This document shows, piece by piece, positions 13,130-38,750 of a DNA stretch of 64,000 bases. The notes under the pieces are model-generated. The model did no database searches. It had not been told where the DNA came from and saw nothing but the letters and a program-made list of their open reading frames with translations. The stretch comes from Allorhizobium pseudoryzae (GTDB lineage Bacteria; Pseudomonadota; Alphaproteobacteria; Rhizobiales; Rhizobiaceae). A program made the position numbers and the translations under genes. Within the stretch, counting starts at the first letter, position 1, and each line of letters opens with the position of its first letter. The stretch lies in contig NZ_CP049244.1 in assembly GCF_011046245.1 (NCBI RefSeq), positions 1,116,001-1,180,000 on the forward strand. The letters run 5' to 3'.

Positions 13130-13138
13130 GGCCGTCCC

Positions 13139-13166
13139 GGCGCCGCAGAGTTCAGCCTGCGGCGCC
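13139..13166 (+). other. Hairpin after the peptide-binding protein gene
   Basis: GGCGCCGCAG (13139-13148) and CTGCGGCGCC (13157-13166) form a perfect 10-bp stem around an 8-base loop, between the binding-protein gene and its permease. No T-run follows. It probably stabilises the upstream message or attenuates the downstream one. Confidence 0.55.
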
Positions 13167-13198
13167 TCCCTCGCTCAGTCCCCGAAAAGGATGGCGCA

Positions 13199-15012: not shown

Positions 15013-15036
15013 ACAGCTATGACAAAGGCCTGACTT

Positions 15037-16821
15037 ATGAGCGAATTTACAACGCGTCCCGAAATCCTCGGCACCTTCGGCGTCGTTACCTCCACCCACT
15101 GGATCGCCTCTGCCGTCGGCATGAGCATCCTTGAAAAGGGCGGCAACGCCTTTGATGCCGCCGTTGCGACCGGCTTCGTGCTGCAGGTGGTCGAACCGCA
15201 TCTGTGTGGTCCGGGCGGCGATATGCCCGCCATCATCTATTCGAAGAAGACCGACAAGGTAGAGGTCATCTGTGCCCAGGGACCGGCGCCTGCCGGCGCC
15301 ACCATCGAGCATTACACCGCGGAAGGCCTGAAGCTGATCCCCGGCGATGGACTTTTGTCCACCGTCATCCCCGGCGCCTTCGATGGCTGGATGCTGATGC
15401 TGCTGGAATACGGCACCATGTCGGTGCGCGAGGTTCTGGAGCCCGCCATCTATTACGCAGAACACGGTCATCCGGTCCTGCCGCGGGTCTCCGCCACCAT
15501 CAAGGGATTGGCGGATTTCTTCGCGAAGGAATGGCCGACCTCGCACGAGACCTGGCTGCCGGGTGGTTCCGCTCCCGAACCGCATTCCAACTTCCGCAAT
15601 CCGGTTCTGGCCGAAACCTGGAAGCGCATCATCAGCGAAGCGGAAGCCGTCACCGGCCGCGACAACCAGGTTCAGGCCGCGCGCGATGCCTTTTATCGCG
15701 GCTTCGTGGCGGAAGCCATCGACACCTACCTGAAGACCGCCGAGGTGATGGATGCCAGCGGACAGAAGCACAAGGGGGTTCTGACCGCCGACGACATGGC
15801 GAACTGGAGCGCCACCATCGAGGCGCCGCAGACCTTCGACTACCATGACTGGACCGTTGCCAAGACGCCCGCCTGGGGCCAGGGGCCGGTCCTCCTGCAG
15901 TCTCTGGCGCTGTTGAAAGGCTTCGATCTCGGCGCCATGGATCAGGCCGGCCCGGATTTCATCCATCACGTCGTTGAGGCGATGAAGCTCGCCTATGCCG
16001 ACCGCGAGGTCTATTACGGCGATCCGGAATTCGGCCAGATCCCGACCGAAGTCTTGCTGTCGGAAAGCTACAATGCCGAGCGGCGCAAGCTGATCGGCGC
16101 GAACGCCTCGATGGAACTGCGCCCCGGCACCATTCCGGGTTACGAACGCCAGGTCGATGCGACGATGGCCATGCTTTCCGAATTCTCCGGCAAGGGCTCC
16201 GTCTACGAGCCGACCATGGCGCATCTCACCGAAAAGAAGGGCGATACCGTCCATATCGACGTCATCGACCGCTGGGGCAACATGGTTTCCACGACGCCGT
16301 CGGGTGGCTGGCTGCAGTCCTCGCCCATCGTGCCGGGGCTCGGTTTTGCACTCAATTCCCGTGCGCAGATGTTCTGGCTGAAGGACGGCCTGCCGACGTC
16401 GCTCGCACCGGGAAAACGTCCGCGCACCACGCTCACCCCGTCGCTGGCGCTCTACCAGGGCCGGCCGACGCTCGCCTTCGGCACGCCGGGCGGTGACCAG
16501 CAGGACCAGTGGCAGCTGCCCTTCTTCCTGCGGTATGTCCATCACGGCAAGAACCTGCAGGCGTCGATCGATGCGCCGCTGTTCCACACCACGCATTTCC
16601 CCGGCTCCTTCTATCCGCGCACATCCGAGCCTGGCCACATCATGGTGGAAGCCGGCTTCGGTGAAGCGACGATTGCCGATCTGCGCCGCCGCGGCCATCA
16701 GGTGACGGTGGCGGACCACTGGACGGTCGGGCGGCTCACGGCGGCACGGCGGGATGCGGATGGCCTGCTGCGGGCGGCGGCCACGCCGCGCCTGATGCAG
16801 GCCTATGCGGTGGGGCGCTGA
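15037..16821 (+). CDS. Gamma-glutamyltransferase family Ntn hydrolase
   Basis: A 594-residue enzyme that should self-cleave. The nucleophile is Thr404 in GDTVH, heading the small subunit; PSGGWLQSS and PGGDQQDQW further on belong to the conserved small-subunit core. Family members cleave or transfer gamma-glutamyl groups, with glutathione as the classic substrate. Unlike the usual periplasmic enzymes there is no signal peptide, so it probably works in the cytoplasm on imported peptide. It lies between a peptide permease and a DUF1028 gene in one operon. Some relatives are acylases, so the substrate is uncertain. Confidence 0.88.
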   Translation: MSEFTTRPEILGTFGVVTSTHWIASAVGMSILEKGGNAFDAAVATGFVLQVVEPHLCGPGGDMPAIIYSKKTDKVEVICAQGPAPAGATIEHYTAEGLKLIPGDGLLSTVIPGAFDGWMLMLLEYGTMSVREVLEPAIYYAEHGHPVLPRVSATIKGLADFFAKEWPTSHETWLPGGSAPEPHSNFRNPVLAETWKRIISEAEAVTGRDNQVQAARDAFYRGFVAEAIDTYLKTAEVMDASGQKHKGVLTADDMANWSATIEAPQTFDYHDWTVAKTPAWGQGPVLLQSLALLKGFDLGAMDQAGPDFIHHVVEAMKLAYADREVYYGDPEFGQIPTEVLLSESYNAERRKLIGANASMELRPGTIPGYERQVDATMAMLSEFSGKGSVYEPTMAHLTEKKGDTVHIDVIDRWGNMVSTTPSGGWLQSSPIVPGLGFALNSRAQMFWLKDGLPTSLAPGKRPRTTLTPSLALYQGRPTLAFGTPGGDQQDQWQLPFFLRYVHHGKNLQASIDAPLFHTTHFPGSFYPRTSEPGHIMVEAGFGEATIADLRRRGHQVTVADHWTVGRLTAARRDADGLLRAAATPRLMQAYAVGR

Positions 16822-16824
16822 GCC

Positions 16825-17579
16825 ATGACCTGGTCCATCGTCGCCCGTGATCCTGACACCGGCCATCTCGGCATTGCCGTTGCCAGCCGCTTCTTCGCCG
16901 TCGGCTCCGCCGTCCCTTACATGCGCGGCGGCATCGGCGCCGTCGCCACCCAGGCCTTCGTCAGTCCTCTCTACGGAGTCGATGGACTGTCGATGCTGGG
17001 TGAAGGCAAAGCGCCTGACGAGATCATCGCTGCCCTGACGGGCCGCGATGACGGCGCGGAGCAGCGGCAGATGCATCTCATCGACGCGAAGGGCCGCAAC
17101 GCCGCCTTCACCGGCGCCAAATGCATCGACTGGGCCGGCCATCTCGTCGATGACCAGGTCTCCGTCGCCGGCAACATGCTGGCCGGACCGCAGGTCCTGG
17201 ATGCGACGCTCGCCGCCTACAAAAGCCTGTCACAGGCGCCGTTTGCCGAACGGCTTCTCGCCGCCATGGAAGCCGGTGAGGGGGCCGGTGGCGACAAGCG
17301 CGGCAAGCAGTCGGCGGCGCTCGTCATCTACCGCGACCAGGACTATGCCTGGCTCAGCATTCGCGCCGACGATCACGCCGACCCGCTGCAGGAGTTGTGG
17401 CGCCTCTACCGGGTGGCGCAGGAGCGTTACCTGCATGTGGCGGAAACCATGCCGACCCGCGCCAACCCGCATGGCCTGATCGACCGTCGCGAGATCGACC
17501 AGACAATCGCCAGCCTCGAGGCCGACCGCATCGCCAGCGGTCGCAAGAGCGCCTCCTTTGCCACGCCCTGGATCCCGAC

Positions 17580-17583
<4 letters not shown>
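16825..17583 (+). CDS. DUF1028 family protein (Ntn-hydrolase-like)
   Basis: A 252-residue protein starting MTWSIVARDP with the DUF1028 hallmarks GHLGIAVASRFFAVG and GGIGAVATQAF in the first 50 residues. The N-terminal fold resembles Ntn hydrolases, but no activity is established for the family. It starts three bases after the GGT stop and its own stop overlaps the ATPase start. Co-location with GGT and a peptide importer suggests a role in peptide or amide processing, which is inference. The last 40 residues are a helical tail. Confidence 0.85.
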
Positions 17584-19388
<1,805 letters not shown>

Positions 19389-19395: not shown

Positions 19396-20154
19396 TTAAG
19401 GCTGGTGCGCGTGCAGGATAGCCCGGAGCGCGCGCACGTTCCCGGCATCCGTCTTCAGCATGTCGCGGGCTGCGAAGGAAAGCTCTATCAACTGGCTGTC
19501 GCTTTCGATGAAGCGTGCGGAACAGGAGGCGTGCAGTTCCGTCACGCCGAGCCTTGCCAAAAGTTCGGCGGCATTGCCGGGCCTGACGCCGGAGCCCGGC
19601 AGGATGGTGATCCGGTTTCCAGCGCGCTCGACGAGATGCGCCAGCCTCTCGATACCCTCGAGCGCCGTCGGTCGTCCGCCGGAAGTAAGAACACGCGAAA
19701 AGCCGAGCCGGATTGCCGCCTCCAGCGCCGCATCCATGTCCGGCACCACATCGAAGGCGCGGTGCAGGGTGCGGTCCAGCCCCGCCGCGTGCTGGGAAAG
19801 CGTCGTCAGCGTCGCGATGTCGAGCGGTCCTTCGGGAAGCGTTGCGCCGATCACGACCCCGGCCAGCCCTGCGGCGCGGGCGGTGTCGATGTCGCTTTTC
19901 ATCATTTCCACCTCTTCCGGCGAAAAGACGAAGCTGCCGGGCCGAGGGCGGATCATCGCATAGACGGGCACGGCCTGGCGCCCCGCCAGCTCCATGAAAC
20001 CGCGCGAGGGGGTAAGCCCCCCGACGGAGAGCGCCGAACAGAGTTCGATCCGGTCCGCCCCGCCTTCGATCGCGGCAAACAGGCCCTCTGCATTGTCGAC
20101 GCAGATTTCCAGAACGGGCGAACCCTTTGAAAGCCTTCGGTTAGCGCCTGCCAT
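19396..20154 (-). CDS. cutC: CutC family protein
   Basis: A 252-residue TIM-barrel protein. LEICVDNAEGLFAAIEGGADRIELCS near the start, RPRPGSFVFS near 90, and TSGG and LPGSGV in the C-terminal half are the CutC signatures. The family was named for copper homeostasis in E. coli, but that role is disputed and the reaction is unknown. ATG 20154 is chosen; it overlaps the upstream exporter gene by 14 bases. Its place next to a sugar-exporter-like MFS and an M81 gene hints at a metabolic role. Confidence 0.88.
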   Translation of the reverse strand: MAGANRRLSKGSPVLEICVDNAEGLFAAIEGGADRIELCSALSVGGLTPSRGFMELAGRQAVPVYAMIRPRPGSFVFSPEEVEMMKSDIDTARAAGLAGVVIGATLPEGPLDIATLTTLSQHAAGLDRTLHRAFDVVPDMDAALEAAIRLGFSRVLTSGGRPTALEGIERLAHLVERAGNRITILPGSGVRPGNAAELLARLGVTELHASCSARFIESDSQLIELSFAARDMLKTDAGNVRALRAILHAHQP

Positions 20155-21373
20155 GCGGTGTCCTTTTGCCGGTTTCGAGCACGAGAAGCAGAATGATGCC
20201 GAGGCAGCCGACCACGGCGCCGAGAATCGAGGCAAAGCTGTAATCGCCAATCCTTGTGCCAAGCGCAAAGATGCCGGCGCTCAAGCCCGCACTCAGGAAA
20301 ATGTTGACCGCGATCAGCGAGCTGCCAAGGCCGGGGCGATCTGCGATCAGGTCCTGCAGATAGGTGATGGGCAGGCTGATGATGGCCGCCGCCGCAAAAC
20401 CGCTGATCAGCGTCTGGGCGTAGACATGCCAGCGCTCCGTCGCCAGCCCCTGCAGGATCAGGTAGATGGCATAGAGCCCGGCGCCGATGGCCAGAGCGCG
20501 AACCGGCGTCAGCCAGCGCTCCGCCTTGCCCCAGAACAGGATGAAGACGATCTCGAGTGCTGCGACGATGCCGACGATGATGCCGAGATCGGCCACCGTG
20601 CCCTTGGCCTTGCCGGTGACGATCAGCGGCCGCACGGCATCGCTGATATGCAGCATCGAGCAGATCAGCGCGATGGCGGTGACGCGGAGCGCAACGCGGG
20701 GTTCGATCACTTCGCCGAGCGAAGCAAGGAAACGCGCCCGTTGCGCACCGCCCTCGATCTCAAGTTTCGGCGCGACCGGCAGGAAAAAGGCGCCGAGCAC
20801 GAAACAGACGAGCGCGGCCACCGTGGCGATCAGATAGGCCGGCAGCATCGAGCTTGCACCCGCCAGCATCACCCCAACGATGCCCGGCATCAGCACCCAG
20901 GAGAGCGAGATGGTGGCCCGGATGGTGGAATTGACGCTGACGAGTTGCGCGGCGCTGAGCTTCCCGGAGCTCGCACGCACATTGGCAAAGATCAACGAGT
21001 TGAGCGCGCCGAAGACAGGAAGCAGCAAAAGCTTCGCCACCACGAAGGCCGGCACGTTCGCCGCCAAATAGATCAGTGCATAACCCGCGACCCCGACGAG
21101 CGACACGTAGATGATCGAGGTGCGGTAATCGCCCATCCGGTCGGCGAGAATACCCATCAGCACGCTCGCGGTAACATTGATCACGGCTGCGGCAAACATC
21201 AGCGTTGCATAACCGGAATTGGAAAGTCCCAGTTCCTGGATGCCGATCAGCGACTGGTAGGGGGACGTCGCCGCCCCCGTCGTGCCGAAGAAGAAGATGG
21301 CCAGCGCCGACACCCGAATGGACGGATTGGCAAGGGTCGCCTTGAGGGCGCTTGTCACGTTTCGCTCACCCAT
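20141..21373 (-). CDS. MFS transporter, sugar-efflux (SetA)-like
   Basis: A 410-residue membrane protein with about twelve predicted helices and an MFS loop 2-3 segment of the form GILADRMGDYRTS near residue 80. Sequence style (GTTGAATSPYQSLIG at the start, SVNSTIRATISLSWVLMPGIVG in the middle) is that of SetA-type sugar exporters. It overlaps the M81 gene upstream by 19 bases and cutC downstream, so all three are one transcription unit. The exported compound is unknown. Confidence 0.82.
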   Translation of the reverse strand: MGERNVTSALKATLANPSIRVSALAIFFFGTTGAATSPYQSLIGIQELGLSNSGYATLMFAAAVINVTASVLMGILADRMGDYRTSIIYVSLVGVAGYALIYLAANVPAFVVAKLLLLPVFGALNSLIFANVRASSGKLSAAQLVSVNSTIRATISLSWVLMPGIVGVMLAGASSMLPAYLIATVAALVCFVLGAFFLPVAPKLEIEGGAQRARFLASLGEVIEPRVALRVTAIALICSMLHISDAVRPLIVTGKAKGTVADLGIIVGIVAALEIVFILFWGKAERWLTPVRALAIGAGLYAIYLILQGLATERWHVYAQTLISGFAAAAIISLPITYLQDLIADRPGLGSSLIAVNIFLSAGLSAGIFALGTRIGDYSFASILGAVVGCLGIILLLVLETGKRTPHGRR

Positions 21374-22803
21374 CGGCTGGAGAAGAAGACCTCGGGCGCG
21401 AAGTCGAAATCCTTGTCGAACGGAAAGCTCGGGCGCTTGCGCCGTGTGTTGGGAATGCGTTCGATATCCTGGTTGATCACGCCGTCGGTCAGCGCCATCA
21501 GGTTGGGATTGGCGATCGGCGCCAGTTCCGGCGACAGATAACCGGATTTCACCACCAGCAGCCGCACGGTCTTCGGATCGATGCCATGCCGGGTGAAGTC
21601 TGCAATGTTATGGTAGGGGCGCCGGCGCGCCGCGAGGATCAGCGTGATGCCGCCGATCCGGACGACCGCCTGCCGCTCGGCCTCCGCACCCGGATCGTCG
21701 AGGCTCAGGACATCGGCCTCCGTCTCGACGCTCGGGCTGTTCGGGTCGAGCGAACCGCCGATCGTCAGCCGCAACGTGGCGCCAACGCCGGCCTTAAAAC
21801 AGGCCTCCACCGCCGTCCGGTCGGTGATGCCGCCAATCACGGCACCCTCGAACCCGCGCTCGATCAGCGCCTTCAGCACATCGGCGCGGTCGCCCACACC
21901 GCCGCCCGTCGGGTTGTCGCCGGAATCGGCGAGGATCACCGGCCGCGTCTCGGCCTTTTCCGCAAGATCCAGAACCTCATCAAGGGGGGCTGTCACCGAA
22001 CCGAACTGGAAGTCGTTGCGCGCATCCCAGTAGGATTGCGCGATGGCTTCGGCAGCACGCCTGGCTGCCGCCTTGTCGGTCGCCGTCACCACGGCGCAGG
22101 CCGTGCCGCGTGGCTCGTCCGCCCAGACATAGCCCACCATCAGATTGGCATCCCAGATGCCGTCCACCGTGTCATGATCGGGAAGTTTTGCGTAGAGGCT
22201 TTTTGCCGGCTCGTCCTCGGTGGAGGTCCGCTCTCCCGGCAGCAGCACCGGAACCGGCGCCCAGGCCACTCCCGGCGTTGCGCCGGTCGTGAGCGTCTTC
22301 ACCAGCATCGACCAGGCACGTACCATCGTCTCGCGCACGTCGATATGCGGCGCGGTGCGGTAACCGGCAAAGATGTCGAGTTGGTCGATGATCTTCTGGG
22401 TCACGTTGCCGTGCAGGTCATAGCTGGCGGCAACCGGAACATCCGGTCCCACGATGGCGCGGGCGGCGGCAATCCAGTCGCCCTCGGCATCGTCCATGCC
22501 CTCCACATTCATTGCGCCATGCATGGCGAGATAAAGCCCGTCGAGCGGCAGGCTGGCCTTCAGGAGATCGAGAAACTCCGCCTTGAACGCCTCGTAGGTG
22601 TGGCGCGCCACGGGACCGCCCGGCACGGCGCGGGCATGCAGCAACGGCAGATGCTCCACGCCATCCGCTTCAAGGAAGTTGAAATATTCGGCGCCCAGCA
22701 GGTCCGGCCCCCGCAGCACGCGAAAATCCTCGGGCTGCATCAAAACGGGGGAGGAGGTGGAGCACTCGGTATGGATACCGCTGACGGCAATGCGCAATGT
22801 CAT
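21355..22803 (-). CDS. M81 family (MlrC-like) metallopeptidase
   Basis: A 482-residue protein of the M81/DUF1485 family whose named member, MlrC, cleaves linearised microcystin. The expected metal ligands appear as Asp and His of YDLHGN and the His of APHID around residues 145-170; the C-terminal subdomain has DSGDNPTGGGVGD near 290. No signal peptide is present, so it should be cytoplasmic. It lies between GH20 and MFS genes, and a second M81 gene sits at 27453. The natural substrate is not predictable; many relatives flank peptide or amino-acid catabolic genes. Confidence 0.85.
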   Translation of the reverse strand: MTLRIAVSGIHTECSTSSPVLMQPEDFRVLRGPDLLGAEYFNFLEADGVEHLPLLHARAVPGGPVARHTYEAFKAEFLDLLKASLPLDGLYLAMHGAMNVEGMDDAEGDWIAAARAIVGPDVPVAASYDLHGNVTQKIIDQLDIFAGYRTAPHIDVRETMVRAWSMLVKTLTTGATPGVAWAPVPVLLPGERTSTEDEPAKSLYAKLPDHDTVDGIWDANLMVGYVWADEPRGTACAVVTATDKAAARRAAEAIAQSYWDARNDFQFGSVTAPLDEVLDLAEKAETRPVILADSGDNPTGGGVGDRADVLKALIERGFEGAVIGGITDRTAVEACFKAGVGATLRLTIGGSLDPNSPSVETEADVLSLDDPGAEAERQAVVRIGGITLILAARRRPYHNIADFTRHGIDPKTVRLLVVKSGYLSPELAPIANPNLMALTDGVINQDIERIPNTRRKRPSFPFDKDFDFAPEVFFSSRWVSET

Positions 22804-22815
22804 GGTGTCAGGTCC

Positions 22816-24744
22816 TCAAAGCTTCGGCATCAGCGGGCTGATGGCGGCAAAACGCAGCCAGTCCTTGTTGTCCTTCGGTGTCCAGGCCGCCTCGGCAATG
22901 GCGCCGAGACGGGGGAAGACGAGATGGTTGAAATAGTCGCGGTTGAGGAAATGTTCGGACCAGATGCAGGCCTGCACGCCGCGCATCCGCGGCTTCAGGT
23001 CTTCCGGGAATTCGCCGACCGCCTCGTAGGTGTAGGTGTGTTTCGGCGGCACGGTGCCTGCCCAGCTGGCGCCCGGCTCCTGAAAGGCCTCGTCCTGCAC
23101 CATGTCGAGATAGTAGGCTTGGCCTGGCGTCATCACCACGTCATAACCCTGACGCGCCAGCTCGACGCCCACCTCAGGCTTCTGCCAGGCCATCAGCAGC
23201 GTGCCGTCGGGATCGACGCCGCCGCCATGGCTGACCTCGTCCCAGCCGGCAAGCTTCCTTCCCCGCTCCAGAAGCATGGTCTGGATGCGTTTCATGAAAT
23301 AGCTCTGCAGGCCGAACGTGCCCTCAATGCCTTGCTCGTCCATCCGTTTGCGGGCGAGCGGCGAGGCCATCCAGGTATTGGCCGCCACCTCGTCGCCGCC
23401 GATATGGATGAGTTTTGACGGGAACAGCTCGACCATCTCGTCGAACACCTTGCCCAGAAACTCGTAAGTCAGCTCGATCGCCGGATTGAGCGCATTGTTG
23501 GGATATCCCTGCACGGAACGATAGCTGTCCGGCGCCTCCTGGCCATCCACCAGCTCCGGCAGTGCCACCAGCGTTGCCGTGCTGTGGCCGGGAATGTCGA
23601 TCTCCGGCACCACCTCGACATTCAGCTGTGCCGCGTGGGCGACGATCGCCTTCACCTCGTCCTGGCTGTAGAACCCGCCGACGGGTTCCGCGCCGTTACC
23701 AAGCTGCGGCAGCATCGGCTCGTCCGGCCCGCGCAGCACGCCCTTGGTGGTGAGTGTCGGATAGGCCTTGATCTCCAGCCGCCACGCTTCATCGTCGCTC
23801 AGGTGCCAGTGGAAGATGTTGAGCCGCATCCAGGCCATGATGTCGATGAGACGGGTGATGTCGGCGGTCGGATAGAACTGCCGCGACACATCCAGATGGC
23901 AGCCGCGCCAGCCATACCGCGGCGCATCCTCAATCGTGCCTGCGGCAGGAAAACGAAAAGTCTGCGATTCGGTCCGCGCACCGTGCAGCAGATGTGCCAG
24001 CGCCGTCAGGCCATATTGCCGGCCGGCGGGACCGGAGAAGGTCAGCGTCACCTGTTCTCCGAAATGCAGCTGAAATGCCTCGGCGGCAAGGCTGGTGTCG
24101 GAGACGAAGCGGATCGCCTTGCCCGCATGCACCGGCGTCAGCGCAAACGGCTGGTGGCCGATCTGGAATAGGCGGCGATAGAGCGCACCCACGGATTGCA
24201 TGGCCTGCTTGTCGGCAAGCGCCGTGCCCTCTGCCGGGTAAAGTGCCACCGGCACACTCTCGCCCGCCTCTAGCTTGGCCGGAACCGGCCAGGGCAGCAG
24301 CGAAAAGGGCTCGTCCACCTCGCCCTTCGGCATCAGAACGGGCGCCGGTTCGGGTGCGCGACCGGCGAGCAACGTGTCATCGACGCTGACCGGATGATGG
24401 CTGCCGTCCGACAGGGTCACGTAAGCGGATTTCGCGCCGTCCGTGCGGTGACGAGCCGGGCGCCAGAGGGGAGCGACTGTGAAGCGCCAAGCCTCTCCCG
24501 GGGCCAGAATGAAATCGGCCGGCGGCGCATATTGGTGGAAATTGGCGTTGCGGATAAGGAAGGTGGCGTTCTCGCAGCGCGGCTCCTCGGCATCCTTGAT
24601 GCGGGTGAGCGAGGTATAGGCGAGCTTGAAGCCGCTCTGCGGCACGTCGGACAGGTTCACCAGCGTGAAGACGAAGCGGCCGCACGGATCGCCCTCCACC
24701 GGTTCCCAGGAATTTTCGAGACGAAAAACAGCATCGGCCATCAT
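22816..24744 (-). CDS. GH20 beta-N-acetylhexosaminidase
   Basis: A 642-residue glycoside hydrolase. An N-terminal beta-rich region (1-130) is followed by a GH20b-like domain (about 150-265) and the catalytic barrel starting at RGCHLDVSRQF. The catalytic Asp-Glu pair in IHIGGDEV is D451-E452, and WHLSDDEAWR and VVPEIDIPGHS are further active-site motifs. It removes terminal GlcNAc or GalNAc by substrate-assisted catalysis. No signal peptide is seen, so it probably acts on imported oligomers. Two adjacent ATGs (24744, 24741) share an AAGGGGA site. It may feed the nag genes at 42-46 kb. Confidence 0.93.
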   Translation of the reverse strand: MMADAVFRLENSWEPVEGDPCGRFVFTLVNLSDVPQSGFKLAYTSLTRIKDAEEPRCENATFLIRNANFHQYAPPADFILAPGEAWRFTVAPLWRPARHRTDGAKSAYVTLSDGSHHPVSVDDTLLAGRAPEPAPVLMPKGEVDEPFSLLPWPVPAKLEAGESVPVALYPAEGTALADKQAMQSVGALYRRLFQIGHQPFALTPVHAGKAIRFVSDTSLAAEAFQLHFGEQVTLTFSGPAGRQYGLTALAHLLHGARTESQTFRFPAAGTIEDAPRYGWRGCHLDVSRQFYPTADITRLIDIMAWMRLNIFHWHLSDDEAWRLEIKAYPTLTTKGVLRGPDEPMLPQLGNGAEPVGGFYSQDEVKAIVAHAAQLNVEVVPEIDIPGHSTATLVALPELVDGQEAPDSYRSVQGYPNNALNPAIELTYEFLGKVFDEMVELFPSKLIHIGGDEVAANTWMASPLARKRMDEQGIEGTFGLQSYFMKRIQTMLLERGRKLAGWDEVSHGGGVDPDGTLLMAWQKPEVGVELARQGYDVVMTPGQAYYLDMVQDEAFQEPGASWAGTVPPKHTYTYEAVGEFPEDLKPRMRGVQACIWSEHFLNRDYFNHLVFPRLGAIAEAAWTPKDNKDWLRFAAISPLMPKL

Positions 24745-24775
24745 GGTTCCCCTTCGGCTCTTGTCTTTGGAAGGC

Positions 24776-25552
24776 TCAGTAGTGTTCGGATTGCGAGAAG
24801 GTGCGGGCAAGCTCCGCCTGTCCGGCGGTCAGTCCGCAATCGACAGGCAGGCATACGCCGGTAATGGCGGCAGCCTGGTCGCTCGAAAGGAAAAAGACCG
24901 CATTCGCCACGTCCTCGGCGGTCGCGATGCGGCGCAGCGCATACCAGCGTTTCGCTTCCTCGAAGACCTGCGGATTGGCGGCGGCGCGCGCCTCCCAGGC
25001 CTGCGTGCGCACCGTGCCGGGCGCCACTGCATTGGCGCGAATGCCGAATTTTCCGTATTCCACGGCAATCAGTTTGGTGAAATGGATGAGGCCCGCCTTG
25101 GCAGCGCTGTAGGCCGGGTGGCCGAACACCGCCATGCCGTTCACCGAAGCGATGTTGATCACGCTGCCCTGTGAGGTTTTCAGGCCATCCTCCAGCGCCC
25201 GGAAGGTGAGGAAGGCCGCTTCGAGATTCAGCGCCGAATCCTGCCGCCAGATCTCCGCCGTCGTATCATGCAGCGAGACCGCGCGGGCGGCGCCGGCATT
25301 GTTGACGAGTGTCCTCGCTGTTCCGAGTGCCGCGACCTGGCCCGCCATGGCAGCGACGCTAACCACATCCGTGACATCACAAGCGATCGTCGCATAGCGC
25401 CCGGACCCTTCCAGATCCGCGAGGCTCTTCTCCAGCGCCGCCTCATCAATGTCGATGAGCGCCACCACGTCATGCGACTGCGCAAGGCGCTTGGCAATGG
25501 CGCGGCCAATATCGCCGGCGGCTCCGGTCACGACGGCAACGGAGGAGGGCAT
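24776..25552 (-). CDS. SDR family oxidoreductase
   Basis: A 258-residue short-chain dehydrogenase. TGAAGDIGRAI near residue 9, NNAGAARAVS near 82, SVNG and YSAAKAG near 145-152 give the cofactor and catalytic sites. ATG 25552 is 4 bases after the RpiR stop, so the genes are co-transcribed. The substrate is unknown; its neighbours suggest an amino-sugar-derived or hydroxy-acid intermediate. Confidence 0.87.
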   Translation of the reverse strand: MPSSVAVVTGAAGDIGRAIAKRLAQSHDVVALIDIDEAALEKSLADLEGSGRYATIACDVTDVVSVAAMAGQVAALGTARTLVNNAGAARAVSLHDTTAEIWRQDSALNLEAAFLTFRALEDGLKTSQGSVINIASVNGMAVFGHPAYSAAKAGLIHFTKLIAVEYGKFGIRANAVAPGTVRTQAWEARAAANPQVFEEAKRWYALRRIATAEDVANAVFFLSSDQAAAITGVCLPVDCGLTAGQAELARTFSQSEHY

Positions 25553-25556
25553 GGGA

Positions 25557-26423
25557 TCAGTCTCCGAGGATCTGCCGGTCGTCGGCGCCATCGCGGTGCT
25601 CGACCAGCTGCTGTTTGATATGGCGAAGGGTGACGGTGGAAAGCTTGCGGTTGCGATAGGCAACGAGGCTGGCCAGCACATCGACCACGGCGAGGAAGGC
25701 AAACCGCGTCGAGGTCGGGCGGTAGATGTTGTCGCCCTCGGGCAGGTCGATCCCGATGACGACTTCCGCGGCGTCTGCCACCGGGCTTTCGCTTTGGGTC
25801 AGCGCAATCGTGCTGATGCCGTTTTCGGCCGCCAGCTTGAAGCAGCGCACCAGTTCCTGATTGCGGCCGGAAAAGGAGGAACCGATCAGCACGTCGTTGG
25901 AATGGGCACCGGCGGTGAACATCAACTGCATGTTGTGGTCGCTGCTGGCCGTCACGCGGGAGCCCAGCCGGAACAGCCGGTTCTGGAATTCTGCCGCGAT
26001 CATCGAGGAATTGCCCCCCGAACCGAAGGCATAGATCATGTCGGCGCGCGACAGCCGGTCGGCTGCCTTTTCCAGCACAATTGGATCAAGTGCCCGGTGG
26101 ATCTGGTAGAGCGCGTTCTGCGCCTTGGTGATGACGTCTTCCGCCACATCGGCGGGTTCGGTGCTCTTTGCCTCCGGATTGAGGTAGCGCAGGCCGACAA
26201 ACCCGGTCTTGGCAAGGCGTACCTTGAAATCCGCAAAATTCTGGCAGCCCAATCTCCGGCAGAAGCGCGTCACCGTCGGCGGCGAGACGTCTGCCTTGTC
26301 CGCCAGCTCGATGATCGAGGCCTTCACCGCAAAGTCGAAGTCGCCGAGCAGGATGTCGGCAATCTTCTGTTCGGCGGTGGAAAACTGGCTGCGCTCGTCC
26401 TGCAGGATCGCGAAGATGTCCAT
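25557..26423 (-). CDS. RpiR family transcriptional regulator (HTH plus SIS domain)
   Basis: A 288-residue regulator. Residues 1-80 are the RpiR helix-turn-helix (ELADKADVSPPTVTRFCRRLGC), and about 125-260 are a SIS sugar-isomerase fold with GSGGNSS and SFSGRNQE that normally binds a phosphosugar. Relatives such as MurR and HexR sense MurNAc-6-P or other sugar phosphates. It lies in the middle of the leftward operon and is its likely controller, with candidate operator DNA at 26834-26845. The effector is inferred only as a phosphosugar. Confidence 0.9.
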   Translation of the reverse strand: MDIFAILQDERSQFSTAEQKIADILLGDFDFAVKASIIELADKADVSPPTVTRFCRRLGCQNFADFKVRLAKTGFVGLRYLNPEAKSTEPADVAEDVITKAQNALYQIHRALDPIVLEKAADRLSRADMIYAFGSGGNSSMIAAEFQNRLFRLGSRVTASSDHNMQLMFTAGAHSNDVLIGSSFSGRNQELVRCFKLAAENGISTIALTQSESPVADAAEVVIGIDLPEGDNIYRPTSTRFAFLAVVDVLASLVAYRNRKLSTVTLRHIKQQLVEHRDGADDRQILGD

Positions 26424-26435
26424 CAGCGTCTCCGC

Positions 26436-26822
26436 TCACCCCTTCGGCTTGTAGGCGATGCAGTCGATCTCGACCTTGCAGTCCACCATCATGCTGGCCT
26501 GCACGCAGGCGCGCGCCGGCGGGTGTTCGCCGAAATAGCCCTGGTAGATCTTGTTGAAGCTCCAGAAATCGCGCGGATCATCCAGCCAGACGCCGCAGCG
26601 CACCACATGTTCCACGCCGTAGCCCGCCTCGTGCAGAATGGCGATCAGGTTCTCGATCGCCTTGTGGCTCTGTTCCACGATGCCGCCGGAAATGATCTCG
26701 CCATTCTCCATCGCCACCTGGCCCGAGACATGCAGCCAGCCATCGGCTTCGACCGCTCTTGCAAAGGGCAGGCGCTGACCGCCGGCACCGGCCTTTTCGG
26801 CCCCGTAACGTTTGATCGACAT
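26436..26822 (-). CDS. RidA/YjgF family enamine-imine deaminase-like protein
   Basis: A 128-residue trimeric-fold protein. HVSGQVAM near residue 31 and the C-terminal PARACVQASMMVDCKVEID carry the family core, including the Arg that in RidA proteins binds the substrate carboxylate. RidA hydrolyses reactive enamine and imine intermediates made by PLP enzymes. It is the first gene of the leftward operon. A PLP enzyme is encoded at 28938 in the divergent operon, a sensible functional partner. Divergence from archetypal RidA means a specialised subgroup is possible. Confidence 0.88.
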   Translation of the reverse strand: MSIKRYGAEKAGAGGQRLPFARAVEADGWLHVSGQVAMENGEIISGGIVEQSHKAIENLIAILHEAGYGVEHVVRCGVWLDDPRDFWSFNKIYQGYFGEHPPARACVQASMMVDCKVEIDCIAYKPKG

Positions 26823-26833
26823 GACACTCCATG

Positions 26834-26845
26834 GAAATTATTTTC
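26834..26845. promoter_or_regulatory. Candidate RpiR operator in the divergent promoter region
   Basis: GAAATTATTTTC has perfect GAAA/TTTC arms around four A/T bases, 12 bases upstream of the ridA start and about 90 upstream of the divergent NTF2-like gene. Symmetric GAAA-N-TTTC sites are the type bound by RpiR-family regulators, and an rpiR gene is next in the operon. A TGAAAAGAATTT at 26905-26916 could be a degenerate second site. Confidence 0.45.
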
Positions 26846-26932
26846 TTGGATCGTTGACATTCGACCATAGTCGCGGGAATTTGACCAGAGTTTTTCCGTG
26901 ATCATGAAAAGAATTTAGACGAGTGCCCGCCC

Positions 26933-27418
26933 ATGCGTGATCCCTACCGTAATCCCTTCCCCGAAAGTGATGCCGCCCGCCACGCCATCTGGGACATGCT
27001 GGTGACGCGCGACATCGACGCCTTCCTCGCCGCCGACTGGGGCATGGTGGAAGGCGACTTCATCGAGGATGGTTTTCTGGGCATTTCCGGCAACCGCGAT
27101 CCCAACCCGGACAAATGGAGCCTCGCCTTTCCGACGCTTGCCGCCTACCGCGACGAATGGCTCTCCCAGGCACGCGATTTTCAGTCCCAGCCCTATGGCG
27201 AGGACCCGCGCAACGCGATCTTCACCACCACCCGGCTGGAAGAGATCGAGATTGCCGGCGACACCGCGCTGGTGCGCAAAAAATTCGACGGCGGCATCAT
27301 GAAGCGCGACGGCACGCTGGACGTCATGAAGTGGCAGACGCTCTATTACTGCCGCCTCAACGAGGGGCGCTGGAAGATATCCGGCTTCACCGGTTACCTG
27401 CCGAACCCGATGGGCTGA
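26933..27418 (+). CDS. NTF2-like/SnoaL-like protein of unknown function
   Basis: A 161-residue soluble protein beginning MRDPYRNPFPESD. The pattern, an N-terminal helix pair (HAIWDMLVTRDIDAFLAADW), then beta-strands (ALVRKKFDGGI, TLYYCRLNEGRWKISGF), fits the NTF2-like fold. I cannot name a function; related folds are isomerases, hydrolases or binding proteins. It is the first gene of the rightward operon, divergent from ridA across a 110-base control region, so it is likely co-regulated with both M81 genes. Confidence 0.75.
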   Translation: MRDPYRNPFPESDAARHAIWDMLVTRDIDAFLAADWGMVEGDFIEDGFLGISGNRDPNPDKWSLAFPTLAAYRDEWLSQARDFQSQPYGEDPRNAIFTTTRLEEIEIAGDTALVRKKFDGGIMKRDGTLDVMKWQTLYYCRLNEGRWKISGFTGYLPNPMG

Positions 27419-27452
27419 GCGCCCCTTCCGACCAGACGAAAGCAGACCCGCC

Positions 27453-28934
27453 TTGCGCATTTTCACCGCCGCCCTTGCCACCGAAACCAACACGTTCTCG
27501 CCGATCTGCATCGACCGCCGCGCCTTCGAGGAATCGCTCTACGCGCCGCCGGGCGAGCATCCGGAGACGCCGACGCTCTGCACCGCGCCAATCACCGTCG
27601 GCCGCAAGGTGTGCCGGGAGAAGGGCTGGACGCTGATCGAGGGCACCGCCGCCTGGGCAGATCCCGCCGGCCTCATCAACCGTCAGGCCTATGAAAGCCT
27701 GCGCGACGAGATCCTCGACCAGCTGAAAGCCGCGCTGCCGGTGGATGCGGTGGTGATGGGCCTGCACGGCGCCATGGTGGCGGATGGCTATCTCGATCCG
27801 GAAGGCGATCTGCTCACCCGCATCCGCGACATCGTGGGTCCCGACGTGCTCGTCTGTGCCGAACTCGATCCGCACAGCCACCTGACGGCAAAACGTGTCG
27901 CGGCGGCGAATTTCTTCGTCGTCTTCAAGGAATTTCCGCATACCGATTTCGTCGATCGTGCCGAGGATCTGTGGGCGATCGCGGTCGATACCCTGGAGGG
28001 CCGAGTTCAGCCGGTCATGTCCGTGTTCGACTGCCGCATGATCGACGTCTTTCCCACCTCGCGCGAGCCGATGCGCTCCTTCGTCGATAAACTGAAGGCG
28101 ATCGAGGTAAGCGATCCGGACGTGCTGTCGCTTTCCGTCATCCACGGCTTCATGGCCGGCGATGTGCCGGAGATGGGCACGAAGACGATTGCCATCACGA
28201 ATGGCAAGCGGGAAAAGGGCGAACAGCTGGCGCAAAGCCTCGGCCTCGAGCTTTATGCCAAGCGCGGCACCTTCATGATGCCCTCGATCGATGAGAAACA
28301 AGCCGTCTCGCAGGCGCTCGGTCTCGTCCGCTCCGGCGCAAGCGGTCCGGTCGTGATTGCCGATATGTGGGACAATCCGGGCGGCGGCACGGCGGGGGAT
28401 GCGACCGTCATCCTCGAAGAACTGCTCGCCCGCGGTGCCACCCATGTCGCCGTCGGCATGATCTGGGATCCGATTGCCGTGCAGATCTGTTTTGCCGCGG
28501 GCGAGGGGGCGGAAATCCCCTTGCGCTTCGGTGCCAAATCCGCACCCGGCACCGGAAACCCGGTGGATGGTCTGGTGACGGTCGTCAAGCTCACGCCGAA
28601 TGCCGAGATGCGGTTTGGCGATAGCATCGCCCCCTTTGGCGATGCCGCGCATATCCGGCTTTCCGGCATCGATATCATCCTCAGTTCGGTCCGGGTGCAG
28701 AGCTACGATCCCTCGCTGTTTACCGCGCTCGGGCTTGATCCGCTGGAAAAGGATATCCTGGTCATCAAGTCGACCAATCATTTTTATGCTGCCTTTTCGA
28801 AGATCGCCTCCGAAATCCTTTACTGCTCGGCCGGCACGCCCTATCCCAATCAGCCGGCGACCAATCCCTATCGGCGGGTGCGGCGCGATATCTGGCCGAT
28901 CATGGCCGATCCGCATGGCATAGAGGCAGCCTGA
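27453..28934 (+). CDS. M81 family (MlrC-like) metallopeptidase
   Basis: A 493-residue protein starting at TTG 27453 (MRIFTAALATETNTFSP), since the family N-terminus begins exactly there. Candidate metal ligands are the Asp and His of LDPHSH and the His of FPHTD near residues 138-165, with a C-terminal DMWDNPGGGTAGD near 307. It is clearly a distant paralogue of the gene at 21355, with the same domain plan but low identity. The next gene starts at its stop. Substrate unknown. Confidence 0.85.
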   Translation: MRIFTAALATETNTFSPICIDRRAFEESLYAPPGEHPETPTLCTAPITVGRKVCREKGWTLIEGTAAWADPAGLINRQAYESLRDEILDQLKAALPVDAVVMGLHGAMVADGYLDPEGDLLTRIRDIVGPDVLVCAELDPHSHLTAKRVAAANFFVVFKEFPHTDFVDRAEDLWAIAVDTLEGRVQPVMSVFDCRMIDVFPTSREPMRSFVDKLKAIEVSDPDVLSLSVIHGFMAGDVPEMGTKTIAITNGKREKGEQLAQSLGLELYAKRGTFMMPSIDEKQAVSQALGLVRSGASGPVVIADMWDNPGGGTAGDATVILEELLARGATHVAVGMIWDPIAVQICFAAGEGAEIPLRFGAKSAPGTGNPVDGLVTVVKLTPNAEMRFGDSIAPFGDAAHIRLSGIDIILSSVRVQSYDPSLFTALGLDPLEKDILVIKSTNHFYAAFSKIASEILYCSAGTPYPNQPATNPYRRVRRDIWPIMADPHGIEAA

Positions 28935-28937
28935 GTG

Positions 28938-30044
28938 ATGGACTTTGCAAGCATTCCCCCGTTGAGCCTGCCGAAGCCCGGCGACCGGCTGGAGCAGCTG
29001 TCGACGCCGCTGCCGGTGATCGACGAGGATCGGCTTGCGGCCAATATCGCCCGCGTGCAGTCCTATATGGACAGCCATAACCTCGCCTTCCGCCCGCATA
29101 TCAAGACGCACAAGATCCCGGCGCTCGCGAAAGCCCAGGTCGAGGCCGGCGCCAAGGGCATCAACTGCCAGAAGATCACCGAGGCGGAAGTCTTTGCCGC
29201 AGCCGGCTTCGATGACATCCTGATCACCTTCAACATCTTGGGCGAAGACAAGCTCGCCCGACTGGCGGCGCTGAACGAGCGCATCGCCGGCCTGAAGGTG
29301 GTGGCGGACAGCATCGTCACGGTCACCGGCCTTGCCGCCTTCTTCACGGGCAGAAAGCCGCTCACCGTGCTGGTGGAATGCGATACCGGCGGCGGGCGCT
29401 GCGGCGTGCAGAGCCCGGATGAAGCGGCAGCGCTCGCCCGCAGCATCGTCGCCAGCAAAAGCCTCACCTTCGGCGGGTTGATGACCTATCCGAAGGCGCA
29501 CACGGAAGCGGCGGTCGATCACTTCTTCCTCGCGGCCATGGCCTATCTCGCAGTCGATGGCATCGATTGCCCGATCCGCTCGAATGGCGGCACGCCCAGC
29601 CTCTTTTCCGCCCATCTGGTGCCGAACGCCACGGAACACCGGGCTGGCACCTATATCTATAACGACCGCGCCATGGTGCGCGCCGGACATTGCGGGCTCG
29701 ACGATTGCGCCATGCACATCCTCGCCACCGTCGTCTCGCGCCCGACGCCCGACCGCGCCGTCCTGGACGCCGGTTCGAAGGCGCTCACCTCCGACCTCCT
29801 CGGCCTTGCCGATTTCGGCCACATCGTCGAATATCCGGACGCCCGCATCACCTCGCTGTCGGAAGAACACGGCACCGTGGATCTCAGCCATGTCGAAGGC
29901 CCCCGCCCGGAGATCGGAGAACGCCTGCGCATCATTCCGAACCACACCTGCGTGGTCTCCAACCTCTTCGACACGATGACCTTTCACCGCGCAGGCGTGG
30001 TGACGCGGGTGGAAGAGGTTGCCGCACGCGGACTGGTGTGGTGA
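28938..30044 (+). CDS. D-threonine aldolase / D-serine dehydratase-like PLP enzyme (DSD1 family)
   Basis: A 368-residue fold-type III PLP enzyme. The alanine-racemase-like N-domain has FRPHIKTHK, with the PLP lysine expected at Lys56, and VECDTGGGRCG near 143. The C-terminal metal-binding domain shows LSEEHGTVDL and IPNHTCVVSNL, the His and Cys of which bind a divalent metal in this family. Reactions are D-threonine cleavage to glycine and acetaldehyde or D-serine dehydration. GTG 28935 is an alternative start. With RidA nearby, an imine-forming reaction on a D-amino acid is plausible. Confidence 0.87.
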   Translation: MDFASIPPLSLPKPGDRLEQLSTPLPVIDEDRLAANIARVQSYMDSHNLAFRPHIKTHKIPALAKAQVEAGAKGINCQKITEAEVFAAAGFDDILITFNILGEDKLARLAALNERIAGLKVVADSIVTVTGLAAFFTGRKPLTVLVECDTGGGRCGVQSPDEAAALARSIVASKSLTFGGLMTYPKAHTEAAVDHFFLAAMAYLAVDGIDCPIRSNGGTPSLFSAHLVPNATEHRAGTYIYNDRAMVRAGHCGLDDCAMHILATVVSRPTPDRAVLDAGSKALTSDLLGLADFGHIVEYPDARITSLSEEHGTVDLSHVEGPRPEIGERLRIIPNHTCVVSNLFDTMTFHRAGVVTRVEEVAARGLVW

Positions 30045-30280: not shown

Positions 30281-32269
30281 ATGAAAAGCTTTGTCATCAA
30301 CCCCCCGGTGTTTTACGGATCCATCATTCTCATTGGCCTGTTTCTGGCCGTCGGCGTGGTGATCCCTGGTCAGGCGGGCGCTCTTTTTGGCGCCATGCAG
30401 GCCTCGATCCTGGGTGCGTTCGGCTGGTTCTACCTGCTTTCGGTCGGCATCTTCCTCGTATCGGTGCTGTTGCTCTGTTTCGGCCGCTTCGGACAGCTCA
30501 AACTTGGTCCGGACGATTCTGTTCCTGATTTCCGCTTCGTGTCCTGGATCGCCATGCTGTTTGCCGCTGGCATGGGGATCGGACTGATGTTCTATGCCGT
30601 CGGCGAACCGATGACGCATTTCATGGCGCCGCCGACTGCCGAGCCGCGCTCGGTCGCAGCCATGCGGGAGGCAATGACCGTCACCTTTTTCCATTGGGGA
30701 ATTCATGCCTGGGCAATCTATGCCGTGGTCGGCCTGTCGCTTGCCTATTTCGGCTATCGCTATAACCTGCCGCTGACGATCCGTTCCGGCCTCTATCCGC
30801 TGCTCAAGAGCCGTATCGACGGTCCGATCGGTCACGCGGTGGATATTTTCGCGATTGTCGGCACCATGTTCGGCATTGCCACGTCGCTCGGTGTCGGCGT
30901 CTCGCAGATCAATGCGGGTCTCAACCATCTCCTCGGCGTCCCGATCGGCGTCGCCGTGCAGTTGCCGTTGATCGCCGTCGTCACCGCCATGGCGACCGTC
31001 TCGGTCGTGACCGGCCTCGACAAGGGCGTCCGCATCCTGTCGGAAACCAACCTGATCGTTGCCATCCTGTTGATGATCTTCGTTCTCGTGATTGGCCCGA
31101 CCAGCCAGTTGTTCCGGGATTTCGTACAGAACCTTGGTCTCTATTTCGACACGCTCGTGCTTCGCACCTTCAACATCTACGCCTATGAACCGACCCCCTG
31201 GGTGGATGCCTGGACCCTGTTCTACTGGGCCTGGTGGATCTCTTGGTCGCCCTTTGTCGGCATGTTCATCGCCCGCATTTCCCGCGGCAGAACCGTTCGT
31301 GAATTTGTCGTCGCCGTCCTGTTCATTCCCGCCGGCTTCACCTTCTTCTGGATGACGGTGTTCGGCAATACGGCGATGTTCATTGATACCGGCATCGCCA
31401 ACGGTGCCCTGGGTACGGCGATCGAGAATGACGTGTCAGTCGGGCTGTTCCGGTTCTTCGAGTATCTGCCGCTGCCGGCCATTACCTCGACACTCGTGGT
31501 TCTGCTGGTCTCGATCTTCTTCATTACCTCGGCGGATTCGGGTGCGCTGGTCGTGGATTCCATTGCAGCCGGCGGGGAAACGAAAACGACAACAGGACAG
31601 CGGGTGTTCTGGTGCGTTATGGAAGGATTCGTCGCGGGCTGCCTGCTGCTCGCCGGTGGCCTGACGGCGCTGCAATCGGCCACGGTCGCGAGCGCCTTGC
31701 CGTTTGCCGTGATCATGCTCGGTCTCGTCGTGTCGCTGTATCTGGGCATGCGAGAGGATTTTGCGCAGCGCGATGCGCACCACGGCAACAACGTGCCGGC
31801 CGCCCAGCCGGCATCCGGCCAGACCTGGCAGCGGAGACTGGCTCTGATCCTCAGCACCGCCACTGAAGCCGATGCGCGCCGTTTCATCGACACGCATGTC
31901 CGCCCAGCCCTTCATCAGGTGGCGCAGGAGTTGACCTCCAGGGGACGGCATGCCCAGGTGGTCGATGAAGCGGATGGCGCGGTTGTCCTGCGCTCACCCG
32001 CGGAAGACGTCCGTGACTTTGTCTACGGTGTCACACCCACAAAGCAGCGCGTCGCGAGCTTTACGCCCTTGCGGGCCGGAGAGCCTGAGTTTCGCTTTGA
32101 GGCGCGCACCTATTTCTCAAGCGGCAATCGCGGCTATGACGTGATGGGCATGTCACGCGATCAGCTCATCAGCGACGTGCTGGCGCAGTTCGAACGCTAT
32201 CTCCACCTGGTGCATTCGCCCGACTTCCAACTCGTCCACAGTGCTCCGGAACATCCATCGGGCATATAG
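30281..32269 (+). CDS. betT: BCCT family betaine/choline/carnitine transporter (BetT-like)
   Basis: A 662-residue secondary transporter with twelve predicted membrane helices in the first 510 residues. [18 protein letters not shown] near residue 98 and [21 protein letters not shown] near 320 are BCCT signatures, and the second holds the tryptophan-rich substrate site. A hydrophilic tail of about 150 residues follows, as in BetT, where the tail senses osmotic stress. It takes up choline or a betaine using the proton or sodium gradient. No bet biosynthesis genes are adjacent. It appears to be a single-gene transcript. Confidence 0.9.
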
Positions 32270-37385: not shown

Positions 37386-37442
37386 GATATCTTCTCCGTT
37401 CGCCGGAACGAGCGGCCTTTCGCGAAAGCAGGGAAGGGAAAA

Positions 37443-37479: not shown

Positions 37480-37493
37480 CTTGTCCTCAAATG

Positions 37494-38723: not shown

Positions 38724-38750
38724 GGTTATGCTCCCATTCTTAGAGGTTGT

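Follow-up and report, generated by a model that had tools for sequence, protein, structure and literature searches.

A conserved, co-regulated amino-sugar unit in Allorhizobium pseudoryzae with a candidate route from N-acetyl-D-glucosaminate to 2-keto-3-deoxygluconate

Introduction

Which substrate is used by a gene cluster that combines an RpiR-type regulator, a hexosaminidase, two metallohydrolases of family M81, RidA and a pyridoxal 5'-phosphate (PLP) enzyme? Such a cluster lies at positions 19396-30044 of a stretch of 64,000 nucleotides (the window) from Allorhizobium pseudoryzae (NZ_CP049244.1, positions 1,116,001 to 1,180,000). A first-pass annotation had listed ten genes there, in two divergent runs around a short control region. 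All ten were confirmed, with a gap of 110 bp (26823-26932) between the runs (Table 1). In this study, we found that the locus is a conserved, co-regulated amino-sugar unit. On balance we lean towards the reading that it serves the catabolism of N-acetyl-D-glucosaminate, the C1-oxidised form of N-acetylglucosamine (GlcNAc), here called GlcNAc1A. The route would pass via D-glucosaminate to 2-keto-3-deoxygluconate (KDG), with the deacetylase, deaminase and transporter replaced relative to the known ong pathway.

The ong cluster of Pseudoalteromonas prydzensis ACAM 620 was described for the use of oxidised chitin (GlcNAc1A) (Jiang et al. 2022, PMC9537276). As described there, its genes encode the GH20 enzyme OngA, the deacetylase OngB, the PLP-dependent deaminase OngC, the RidA protein OngD, the RpiR-type regulator OngR, KdgK and a sodium-solute-symporter (SSS) transporter, and growth on GlcNAc1A was abolished by loss of OngB, OngC, OngD or KdgK. 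PaOngB (WP_209438165), which is the D-aminoacylase of our comparison cluster from Pseudoalteromonas CF6-2 (L183; L numbers are loci and G numbers genomes), was tested as a GlcNAc1A deacetylase (PMC12017989). The first-pass annotation had known of no described pathway with the gene set of the window. This does not hold for the logic of RpiR, GH20, RidA, PLP deaminase and deacetylase, which is that of ong, and it does hold for the M81 and short-chain dehydrogenase/reductase (SDR) parts, which are new.

Results

Co-inheritance of the gene set

A match to M81A, the M81 protein of the minus-strand run, was present in 86 of the 151 genomes of the window's family, and an orthologue of at least 61% identity in 17, own genome counted. 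The genes for RpiR, SDR, the NTF2-like protein and M81B, the second M81 protein, occurred together as a block in 11 of the 16 other M81A genomes (G094, G103, G071, G113, G017, G128, G009, G061, G069, G045 and G029), and M81A lay inside the block in 10. Because the block recurs in this way, the gene set is more than a chance assembly. The major facilitator superfamily (MFS) gene was found in nine of the 11 block-bearing genomes and CutC in two. G029 carried the block without M81A and GH20, its M81A being elsewhere in the genome, G069 was without GH20, and no RidA match was seen in G045. No PLP gene adjoined M81B in G071, G113, G009 and G045, where a PLP relative was found at another place. G088 had GH20 and M81A only, and G047, G050, G052 and G140 had M81A without the block.

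Within the 16 family genomes, a PLP relative was present in 11 of 11 with M81B and in none of the five without it. In the phylum, M81B (at least 51% identity) was found in 16 of 398 genomes and the PLP gene in all 16; the two 398-genome searches were taken as the same set, with three to five candidates scored per genome and misses possible. Five further M81 matches at 37-44% identity were left uncounted. M81B implies the PLP gene, and not the reverse. The first-pass annotation had named scattering of the genes in relatives as an outcome that would speak against a joint unit; in the related genomes the divergent core (SDR-RpiR-RidA opposite NTF2-M81B-PLP) was instead co-inherited. In S. meliloti the PLP relative lies at a second locus.

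Architectures of related loci

Loci of PLP relatives, the best 80 of 587, were searched by tblastn with 46 to 51 proteins as queries. Counts were made on the 65 loci whose flanks reach at least 9 kb to either side, 15 loci with shorter flanks being excluded, and presence means a tblastn match at fixed identity limits within 10.5 kb. M81B-type and RpiR genes were each found in 56 of the 65 loci, RidA in 49, the NTF2-like gene in 41 and SDR in 38. A sugar ATP-binding cassette (ABC) transporter was seen in 36, GH20 in 26, M81A in 24, NagA in 16 and a Dpp-type transporter in 12. A KDG-kinase-like gene was seen in seven loci, a tripartite ATP-independent periplasmic (TRAP) transporter in six, and a gene like 2-keto-3-deoxy-6-phosphogluconate (KDPG) aldolase in three. 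A sugar transporter lay near the core in 34 of the 56 M81B loci, 14 of these 34 also having NagA, and a Dpp-type transporter replaced it in 12 of the 56. GH20 was also present in 22 of the 23 M81B loci that bear M81A.

The window arrangement (T1) mostly comes with the sugar ABC transporter. In T2 (Thalassospira and a metagenome-assembled genome (MAG) of Rhodospirillales), KDG kinase-RpiR-RidA stands opposite TRAP-M81-PLP, with the NTF2-like gene converging. T3 has RpiR opposite PLP-M81-Dpp transporter-RidA (Rhizobium wenxiniae, Ochrobactrum, Brucella gallinifaecis and others), and T4 (Stappia) has RpiR-RidA opposite Dpp-M81-PLP. T5 (L057, L138, L141 and L173) has an amino-acid ABC transporter, RidA and an IclR regulator, and no M81 match at 1e-5 was obtained in any of its four stretches. 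T5 would fit uptake of free D-glucosaminate, for which no deacetylase would be needed.

An operator pair shared by two promoters

A pair of GAAAATNATTTTC-like near-palindromes with 73-bp spacing was found both at the divergent promoter and before the transporter operon at 36261-41686. In a window-wide ranking, the sites at 41709 and 41782 were second and third best, and a lone site at 3572 was fourth, just above that at 26906. A genome-wide pattern, written to fit the two window pairs, matched the 5.4-Mb genome at exactly two places, and its backward control matched nowhere. With three mismatches allowed there were seven matches, of which one was the first pair on the other strand and four were scattered.

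The pair, 72-74 bp apart, was also found at 31 of 37 Gfo/Idh promoters of relatives (not at L095, L106, L111, L112, L113 and L117), compared to 4 of 400 random stretches. It occurred at 40 of 40 plus-strand NTF2 promoters of relatives by construction, since the operator matrix was built from NTF2-side promoters; the Gfo/Idh promoters and the random stretches are the independent part. Among spacings of 20-139 bp at 80 loci, 73 bp was counted 66 times, 72 bp 65 times, 74 bp 22 times, 71 bp 12 times and the others at most six times, related loci and neighbouring registers not being independent. In T3 loci the pair stands before PLP, M81 or RidA. Because it recurs at both window promoters and at promoters of relatives, one regulator most likely controls both divergent operons as well as the transporter operon.

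A single operator for all architectures was considered and rejected, the T2 loci having TGTAG-type repeats instead. By eye, these are TGTAG...CTACA repeats between RidA and TRAP in the Thalassospira-type loci L120, L122, L124 and L125, and they resemble what we take to be the HexR consensus.

These results bear on the boundaries and the regulation of the cluster. The first-pass annotation was right about the ten genes and drew the boundary too narrowly, as the transporter and nag genes at 36261-46050 belong to the unit too. Independent regulation of operons, which it had also named as counter-evidence, was not found, the operator pair being common to the divergent and the transporter promoter. 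Its view of one co-inherited, apparently co-regulated amino-sugar catabolic unit that unites M81B, RidA and the PLP enzyme was borne out by the neighbourhoods and the shared pair.

The PLP enzyme

The nearest named proteins were mostly from Rhizobium, Agrobacterium and Allorhizobium. The motif that we take to be metal-binding reads PNHTC in the window enzyme and PNHAC in D-threo-3-hydroxyaspartate dehydratase (3wqc), a member of the same fold-type III PLP family with the same His-x-Cys. In the D-threonine aldolases 4v15 and 7dib, 4v15 also being a fold-type III enzyme, it differs and reads PSHVD (His-x-Asp). The His and Cys were kept in 89 of 89 rows of at least 48% identity. The earlier label of a D-threonine-aldolase-like enzyme was therefore dropped: the motif is of the dehydratase type, and PLP relatives adjoin KDG kinase and KDPG aldolase genes. 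An identity as BhcC, a 3-hydroxy-D-aspartate aldolase, was rejected by the same motif and by the score (184.6 bits against model NF045642, below the cut-off of 690). An OngC orthologue had been expected, and was tested and ruled out by the separate clade of the window enzyme, which also holds the PLP genes of L061, L120, L122, L126, L137, L138 and L173.

In Paracoccus (L061), the PLP relative is accompanied by a kinase with KDG kinase as top NCBIfam model (below cut-off) and 2-dehydro-3-deoxygluconokinase as best PDB match (1.3e-74). The kinase near PLP in Thalassospira L122 had KdgK as top model (314 bits, cut-off 400). In a Chloroflexota MAG (L126), one run holds RidA, PLP, an Eda aldolase that exceeds its cut-off (169.4 bits against 156) and a kinase of the KDG/KDGal type that stays below its own (264 bits against 440). 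In L120, L123-L125, L137, L138 and L173 the linkage to KDG kinase or aldolase was seen by tblastn similarity alone, with identity partly as low as 28% in L120, L137, L138 and L173. The own genome has a KdgK relative (49%) at G000:C1:2264821 and PF01081 aldolases. The simplest reading is that the PLP enzyme would be an eliminating deaminase acting on D-glucosaminate, with a dedicated RidA next to it. D-glucosaminate dehydratase is reportedly a subject of work by Iwamoto.

In the same Anaerolineales MAG locus (L126:8415-12650), an M19-dipeptidase-like open reading frame (ORF), recognised by eye, precedes RidA, PLP, Eda aldolase and kinase. It had no NCBIfam match at 1e-8 and is a candidate third deacylase type for the core.

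The M81 proteins

To our knowledge, microcystin cleavage is the only function known for family M81. The Glu residue that the microcystinase MlrC sets free has D configuration and is acylated through its alpha-nitrogen. Cleavage of the Adda-Glu amide by MlrC and the residues of its zinc centre are described in PMC12474180. By our own count of the numbering offset to 7ylq, the zinc centre Glu/His/Asp/His/His was complete in 63 of the 64 M81B rows, the remaining row having a gap, and in 29 of 29 M81A rows. Both proteins scored far below the cut-off of 999 of the NCBIfam MlrC model NF041767 (M81B 373.4, M81A 146.9). With MlrC (MEROPS M81) they have in common the sequence family and all five zinc-centre residues, MlrC being an amide-cleaving enzyme. 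They differ in context: no mlrA- or mlrB-like gene was seen among the genes at 19.4-30.0 kb, and the surroundings are those of amino sugars.

In the T2 loci and in Paracoccus L061, M81 stands beside TRAP, PLP, RidA, RpiR and KDG kinase, which is the slot of OngB. From this position and the chemistry of MlrC, we infer that M81B may deacetylate GlcNAc1A. Our searches of open-access literature gave no paper that links M81 to amino sugars. The two PF07364 (M81) genes of the locus are the only ones in the 5.38-Mb genome.

SDR, GH20, transporter and nag genes

SDR (at least 40% identity) was found in 33 of the 34 sugar-ABC M81B loci, in none of the 18 TRAP or Dpp loci, and in two of the four with no transporter seen. 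Since SDR tracks the sugar-ABC loci, this suggests that it may produce the acid in units that take up a neutral sugar. N-acetylhexosamine dehydrogenase is a known activity (EC 1.1.1.240). The window GH20 was 33% identical to OngA over 330 amino acids; no signal peptide was apparent by eye, and it is perhaps cytoplasmic.

The GntR regulator beside the nag genes matched general GntR models only, and a NagQ-like role is a guess. NagQ-type GlcNAc regulons of Proteobacteria have been described (PMC5343134). The window has nagB, nagA and kinase genes with a GntR-family regulator in common with them, whereas its oxidative arm and transporter have a separate operator pair.

RidA and comparison with ong

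The window RidA was 58.9% identical to OngD of Pseudoalteromonas CF6-2 (153 bits), compared to 28-31% for Rid paralogues of its own genome and 83.5 bits for the best solved RidA in the PDB. Because the OngD subclade is separate, deep forks are weak and RidA identities are wide, we call it similar to OngD and not orthologous. OngA, OngC, OngD and OngR queries each matched one gene of the locus.

The window and ong have in common an RpiR-type regulator, GH20, a similar RidA, a fold-type III PLP enzyme with an H-x-C motif, and the logic of deacetylation before deamination. KDG kinase is encoded in the ong cluster; it had no match in the window and is found in-cluster in other architectures or elsewhere in the genome. 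In contrast to ong, M81B stands in the place of OngB, the PLP enzyme is of a different subfamily, and the SSS transporter is replaced by sugar ABC, TRAP or Dpp types. The window adds SDR, M81A and the NTF2-like protein, and its GH20, by eye without a signal peptide, may differ in this from the periplasmic OngA.

A mixed form of both pathways was seen at L161:5234-10545 (G452). It has an OngB relative that scores 551 bits against PpOngB, OngD occurs in two nearly identical copies, the transporter is of the SSS type, and the PLP enzyme is closer to the window type (37%) than to OngC (21%). The OngB relative had no match in the A. pseudoryzae genome at E 1e-125, with 3 of 23 candidates scored; that genome has 31 stretches matching PF07969, the amidohydrolase family of OngB. 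The Vibrio locus L062 was considered as an ong cluster and proved not to be one.

Features of the window and neighbouring genes

Table 1. Coordinates, in window positions, of the genes and operator sites of the unit.
Feature	Position	Strand	Remarks
CutC	19396-20130	-	peripheral member
MFS	20141-21373	-	peripheral member
M81A, MlrC-like metallohydrolase	21355-22803	-	Pfam DUF1485/MlrC_C
GH20 beta-N-acetylhexosaminidase	22816-24741	-	Pfam 371.6 bits; best PDB match Nag2, 6ezr
SDR oxidoreductase	24776-25555	-	NCBIfam PRK07074 above cut-off
RpiR/SIS transcriptional regulator	25557-26423	-	Pfam HTH_6 + SIS
RidA, OngD-like, proposed enamine/imine deaminase	26436-26822	-	Pfam; 58.9% to OngD
Operator site 1, GGAAATTATTTTC	26833-26845		divergent promoter gap
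Operator site 2, GAAAAGAATTTAG	26906-26918		73 bp from site 1
Small protein, "NTF2-like" in the first-pass annotation	26933-27418	+	conserved partner; 31-row alignment
M81B, proposed N-acetyl-D-glucosaminate deacetylase	27453-28934	+	MlrC 7ylq, 1.5e-104
Fold-type III PLP enzyme, proposed D-glucosaminate dehydratase (deaminating)	28935-30044	+	
UgpC-type ATPase, sugar ABC transporter	36261-37490	-	alignment from 37385
Sugar-binding protein	37494-38723	-	
Sugar ABC permease	38751-39611	-	
Sugar ABC permease, second	39608-40492	-	
Gfo/Idh/MocA oxidoreductase	40505-41686	-	
Operator site, GTAATTATTTTTC	41709-41721		transporter promoter, before Gfo/Idh
Second transporter-promoter operator site, GAAATTCCTTTTC	41782-41794		73 bp further
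GntR regulator	42129-42881	+	ORF opens 41997, start chosen by analyst
NagB-II-like glucosamine-6-P deaminase	42912-43940	+	top NCBIfam NagB-II 287.3 bits, cut-off 430
NagA GlcNAc-6-P deacetylase	43937-45148	+	TIGR00221 293.8 bits, above cut-off
ROK kinase, GlcNAc-kinase-like	45145-46050	+	top model GlcNAc kinase 197.6 bits, cut-off 380

The NTF2-like protein had zero matches in Pfam, NCBIfam or PDB. Genes of the betaine/carnitine/choline transporter (BCCT), MFS and AraC types lie between the core and the transporter and nag genes (MFS 34085-35287 by eye). The BCCT-family gene (30281-32269) is directly behind the PLP gene, and no BCCT match was seen beside the core in family loci.

On the other side, a plus-strand run at 10616-19388 encodes GntR, a Dpp-type binding protein with permeases, gamma-glutamyltransferase, DUF1028 and fused ABC ATPases. 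It looks like a gamma-glutamyl-peptide utilisation unit and stands tail to tail with CutC. Its gamma-glutamyltransferase/DUF1028/Dpp block (11.6-19.4 kb) was considered as a member of the unit and rejected, as gamma-glutamyltransferase and DUF1028 had no match in any of the 16 M81A family loci. A further sugar ABC transporter, made up of a UgpC-type ATPase, a binding protein and two permeases, lies with two SDR-like genes at 2537-8617, and GntR- and epimerase-like ORFs were seen upstream of it by eye and tblastn.

Discussion

In the pathway that we favour, the sugar ABC transporter would import a GlcNAc-containing sugar, from which GH20, which belongs to a hexosaminidase family, may free GlcNAc in the cytoplasm. 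A share of the GlcNAc could pass through the kinase, NagA and NagB-II, whose families are present at the locus. SDR, perhaps with Gfo/Idh, would yield GlcNAc1A, which the predicted zinc amidohydrolase M81B would convert to D-glucosaminate. The PLP enzyme would then remove water from D-glucosaminate, and RidA would hydrolyse the enamine/imine to KDG and ammonia. KDG would enter the Entner-Doudoroff pathway through KDG kinase and KDPG aldolase, whose genes are found at other places in the genome. RpiR is predicted to bind, at each of the two promoters, the palindrome pair with its spacing of about seven helical turns.

A wider proposal, which we put forward tentatively and consider rather doubtful, is that the M81 proteins of this clade may form a new family of carbohydrate de-N-acetylases with N-acetyl-amino-aldonic acids as substrates. 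Together with the acid-making SDR they would constitute a non-phosphorylative GlcNAc pathway free of lytic polysaccharide monooxygenase. It would have been assembled independently of ong: RidA and RpiR would have been retained while the deacetylase, deaminase and transporter around them were exchanged, with control by a palindrome pair seven helical turns apart.

Several observations weigh against the route through GlcNAc1A and D-glucosaminate. The PLP enzyme was 26% identical to OngC and belonged to a clade of 36 rows apart from OngC in a tree of 52 rows (SH-aLRT 97), and in the RidA tree five OngD rows formed their own subclade (100) excluding the window RidA, with weak deep forks; both trees were of a quick kind with several long branches. 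RidAs of other architectures ranged from 78% down to 38% identity to that of the window, with 28% in Thalassospira xianhensis, and RidA was not found in 16 of the 65 loci. OngB, OngIT and OngKdgK had no match in the window at 1e-5. The RpiR protein was 37.5% identical to OngR; its best NCBIfam model was HexR (194.6 bits, below the cut-off of 296), and it was rejected as specific evidence for an ong-type pathway. T2 loci use other repeats, and the operator therefore supports co-regulation and not the substrate. In the phylum searches the PLP gene (at least 48% identity) was present in 32 of 398 genomes, 16 of which were without M81B, with the scoring limits given above. The slot argument for M81B is not exclusive, because Thalassospira L122 has an ArgE/DapE-family deacylase (above cut-off) at 16417-17712, which lies 5.4 kb past the PLP gene on the opposite strand. 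The SDR distribution also follows lineage and is confounded by it, and a kinase/NagA route for GlcNAc exists in the same locus beside the proposed oxidation. Finally, M81A, the NTF2-like protein, CutC and MFS fall outside the proposed steps, which leaves one of the two M81 enzymes of the locus, M81A, without an explained role.

Three other explanations were weighed. The core from glucosaminate to KDG may be right while M81B takes off a different acyl group, or has as its substrate a different 2-amino-aldonic acid, such as one derived from N-acetylgalactosamine or N-acetylmannosamine, or while the deacetylase is another enzyme. MlrC tolerates a bulky acyl group, the locus has two different M81 enzymes, transporter types differ between loci, and the deacylase near the T2 cluster in L122 is of another family. 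We regard this variant as unlikely, as the nag genes and the GlcNAc-kinase-like ROK point to GlcNAc, and every compared genome in which M81B was found also had a PLP relative. Use of a muropeptide, glycopeptide or D-amino acid corresponds to the substrate suggested by the first-pass annotation, an amino sugar linked to a D-amino acid or peptide. GH20 would strip the sugar, M81 would hydrolyse a peptide or N-acyl-D-amino-acid linkage, and a D-hydroxy-amino acid would be degraded by the PLP enzyme. This agrees with the Adda-Glu cleavage by MlrC (PMC12474180) and with the activity of OngC on D-serine and D-threonine reported in PMC9537276. It also agrees with the Dpp transporters of 12 of the 56 M81B loci, the Dpp genes that adjoin M81A orthologues in G047, G050, G052 and G140, and the amino-acid ABC transporter of the T5 relatives. 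The linkage to KDG kinase and Eda genes and the likeness of RidA to OngD, however, disfavour it, as do the nag operon and the sugar ABC transporter behind the same operator pair, and it appears distinctly improbable to us.

Catabolism of N-acetylmuramate (MurNAc) or GlcNAc-MurNAc, with the unit handling the peptidoglycan disaccharide, would fit a MurR/RpiR-type regulator. MurQ-like etherase genes lie near the cluster in Qingshengfaniella L059 (20308-21207) and Stappia L113, and in L059 CutC is beside ROK and MurQ. However, a search limited to the window gave no MurQ match at 1e-10, MurQ was found only in L113 among the 80 scanned loci, and PLP, RidA and KDG kinase would be left unexplained. 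This explanation is very unlikely. We keep the route from GlcNAc1A via D-glucosaminate to KDG as the working model.

M81 proteins are common, and a role as amino-sugar-acid deacetylase, joined to a matched PLP dehydratase and a defined regulon, is a testable prediction. Ensifer aridi is reported to use D-glucosaminic acid (PMC5237526), which is also listed in a substrate table of S. meliloti (PMC4207669). If the model is true, it would name genes with which rhizobia use D-glucosaminic acid. It would also extend oxidative amino-sugar catabolism from Gammaproteobacteria, where it was described, to Alphaproteobacteria, plant symbionts included.

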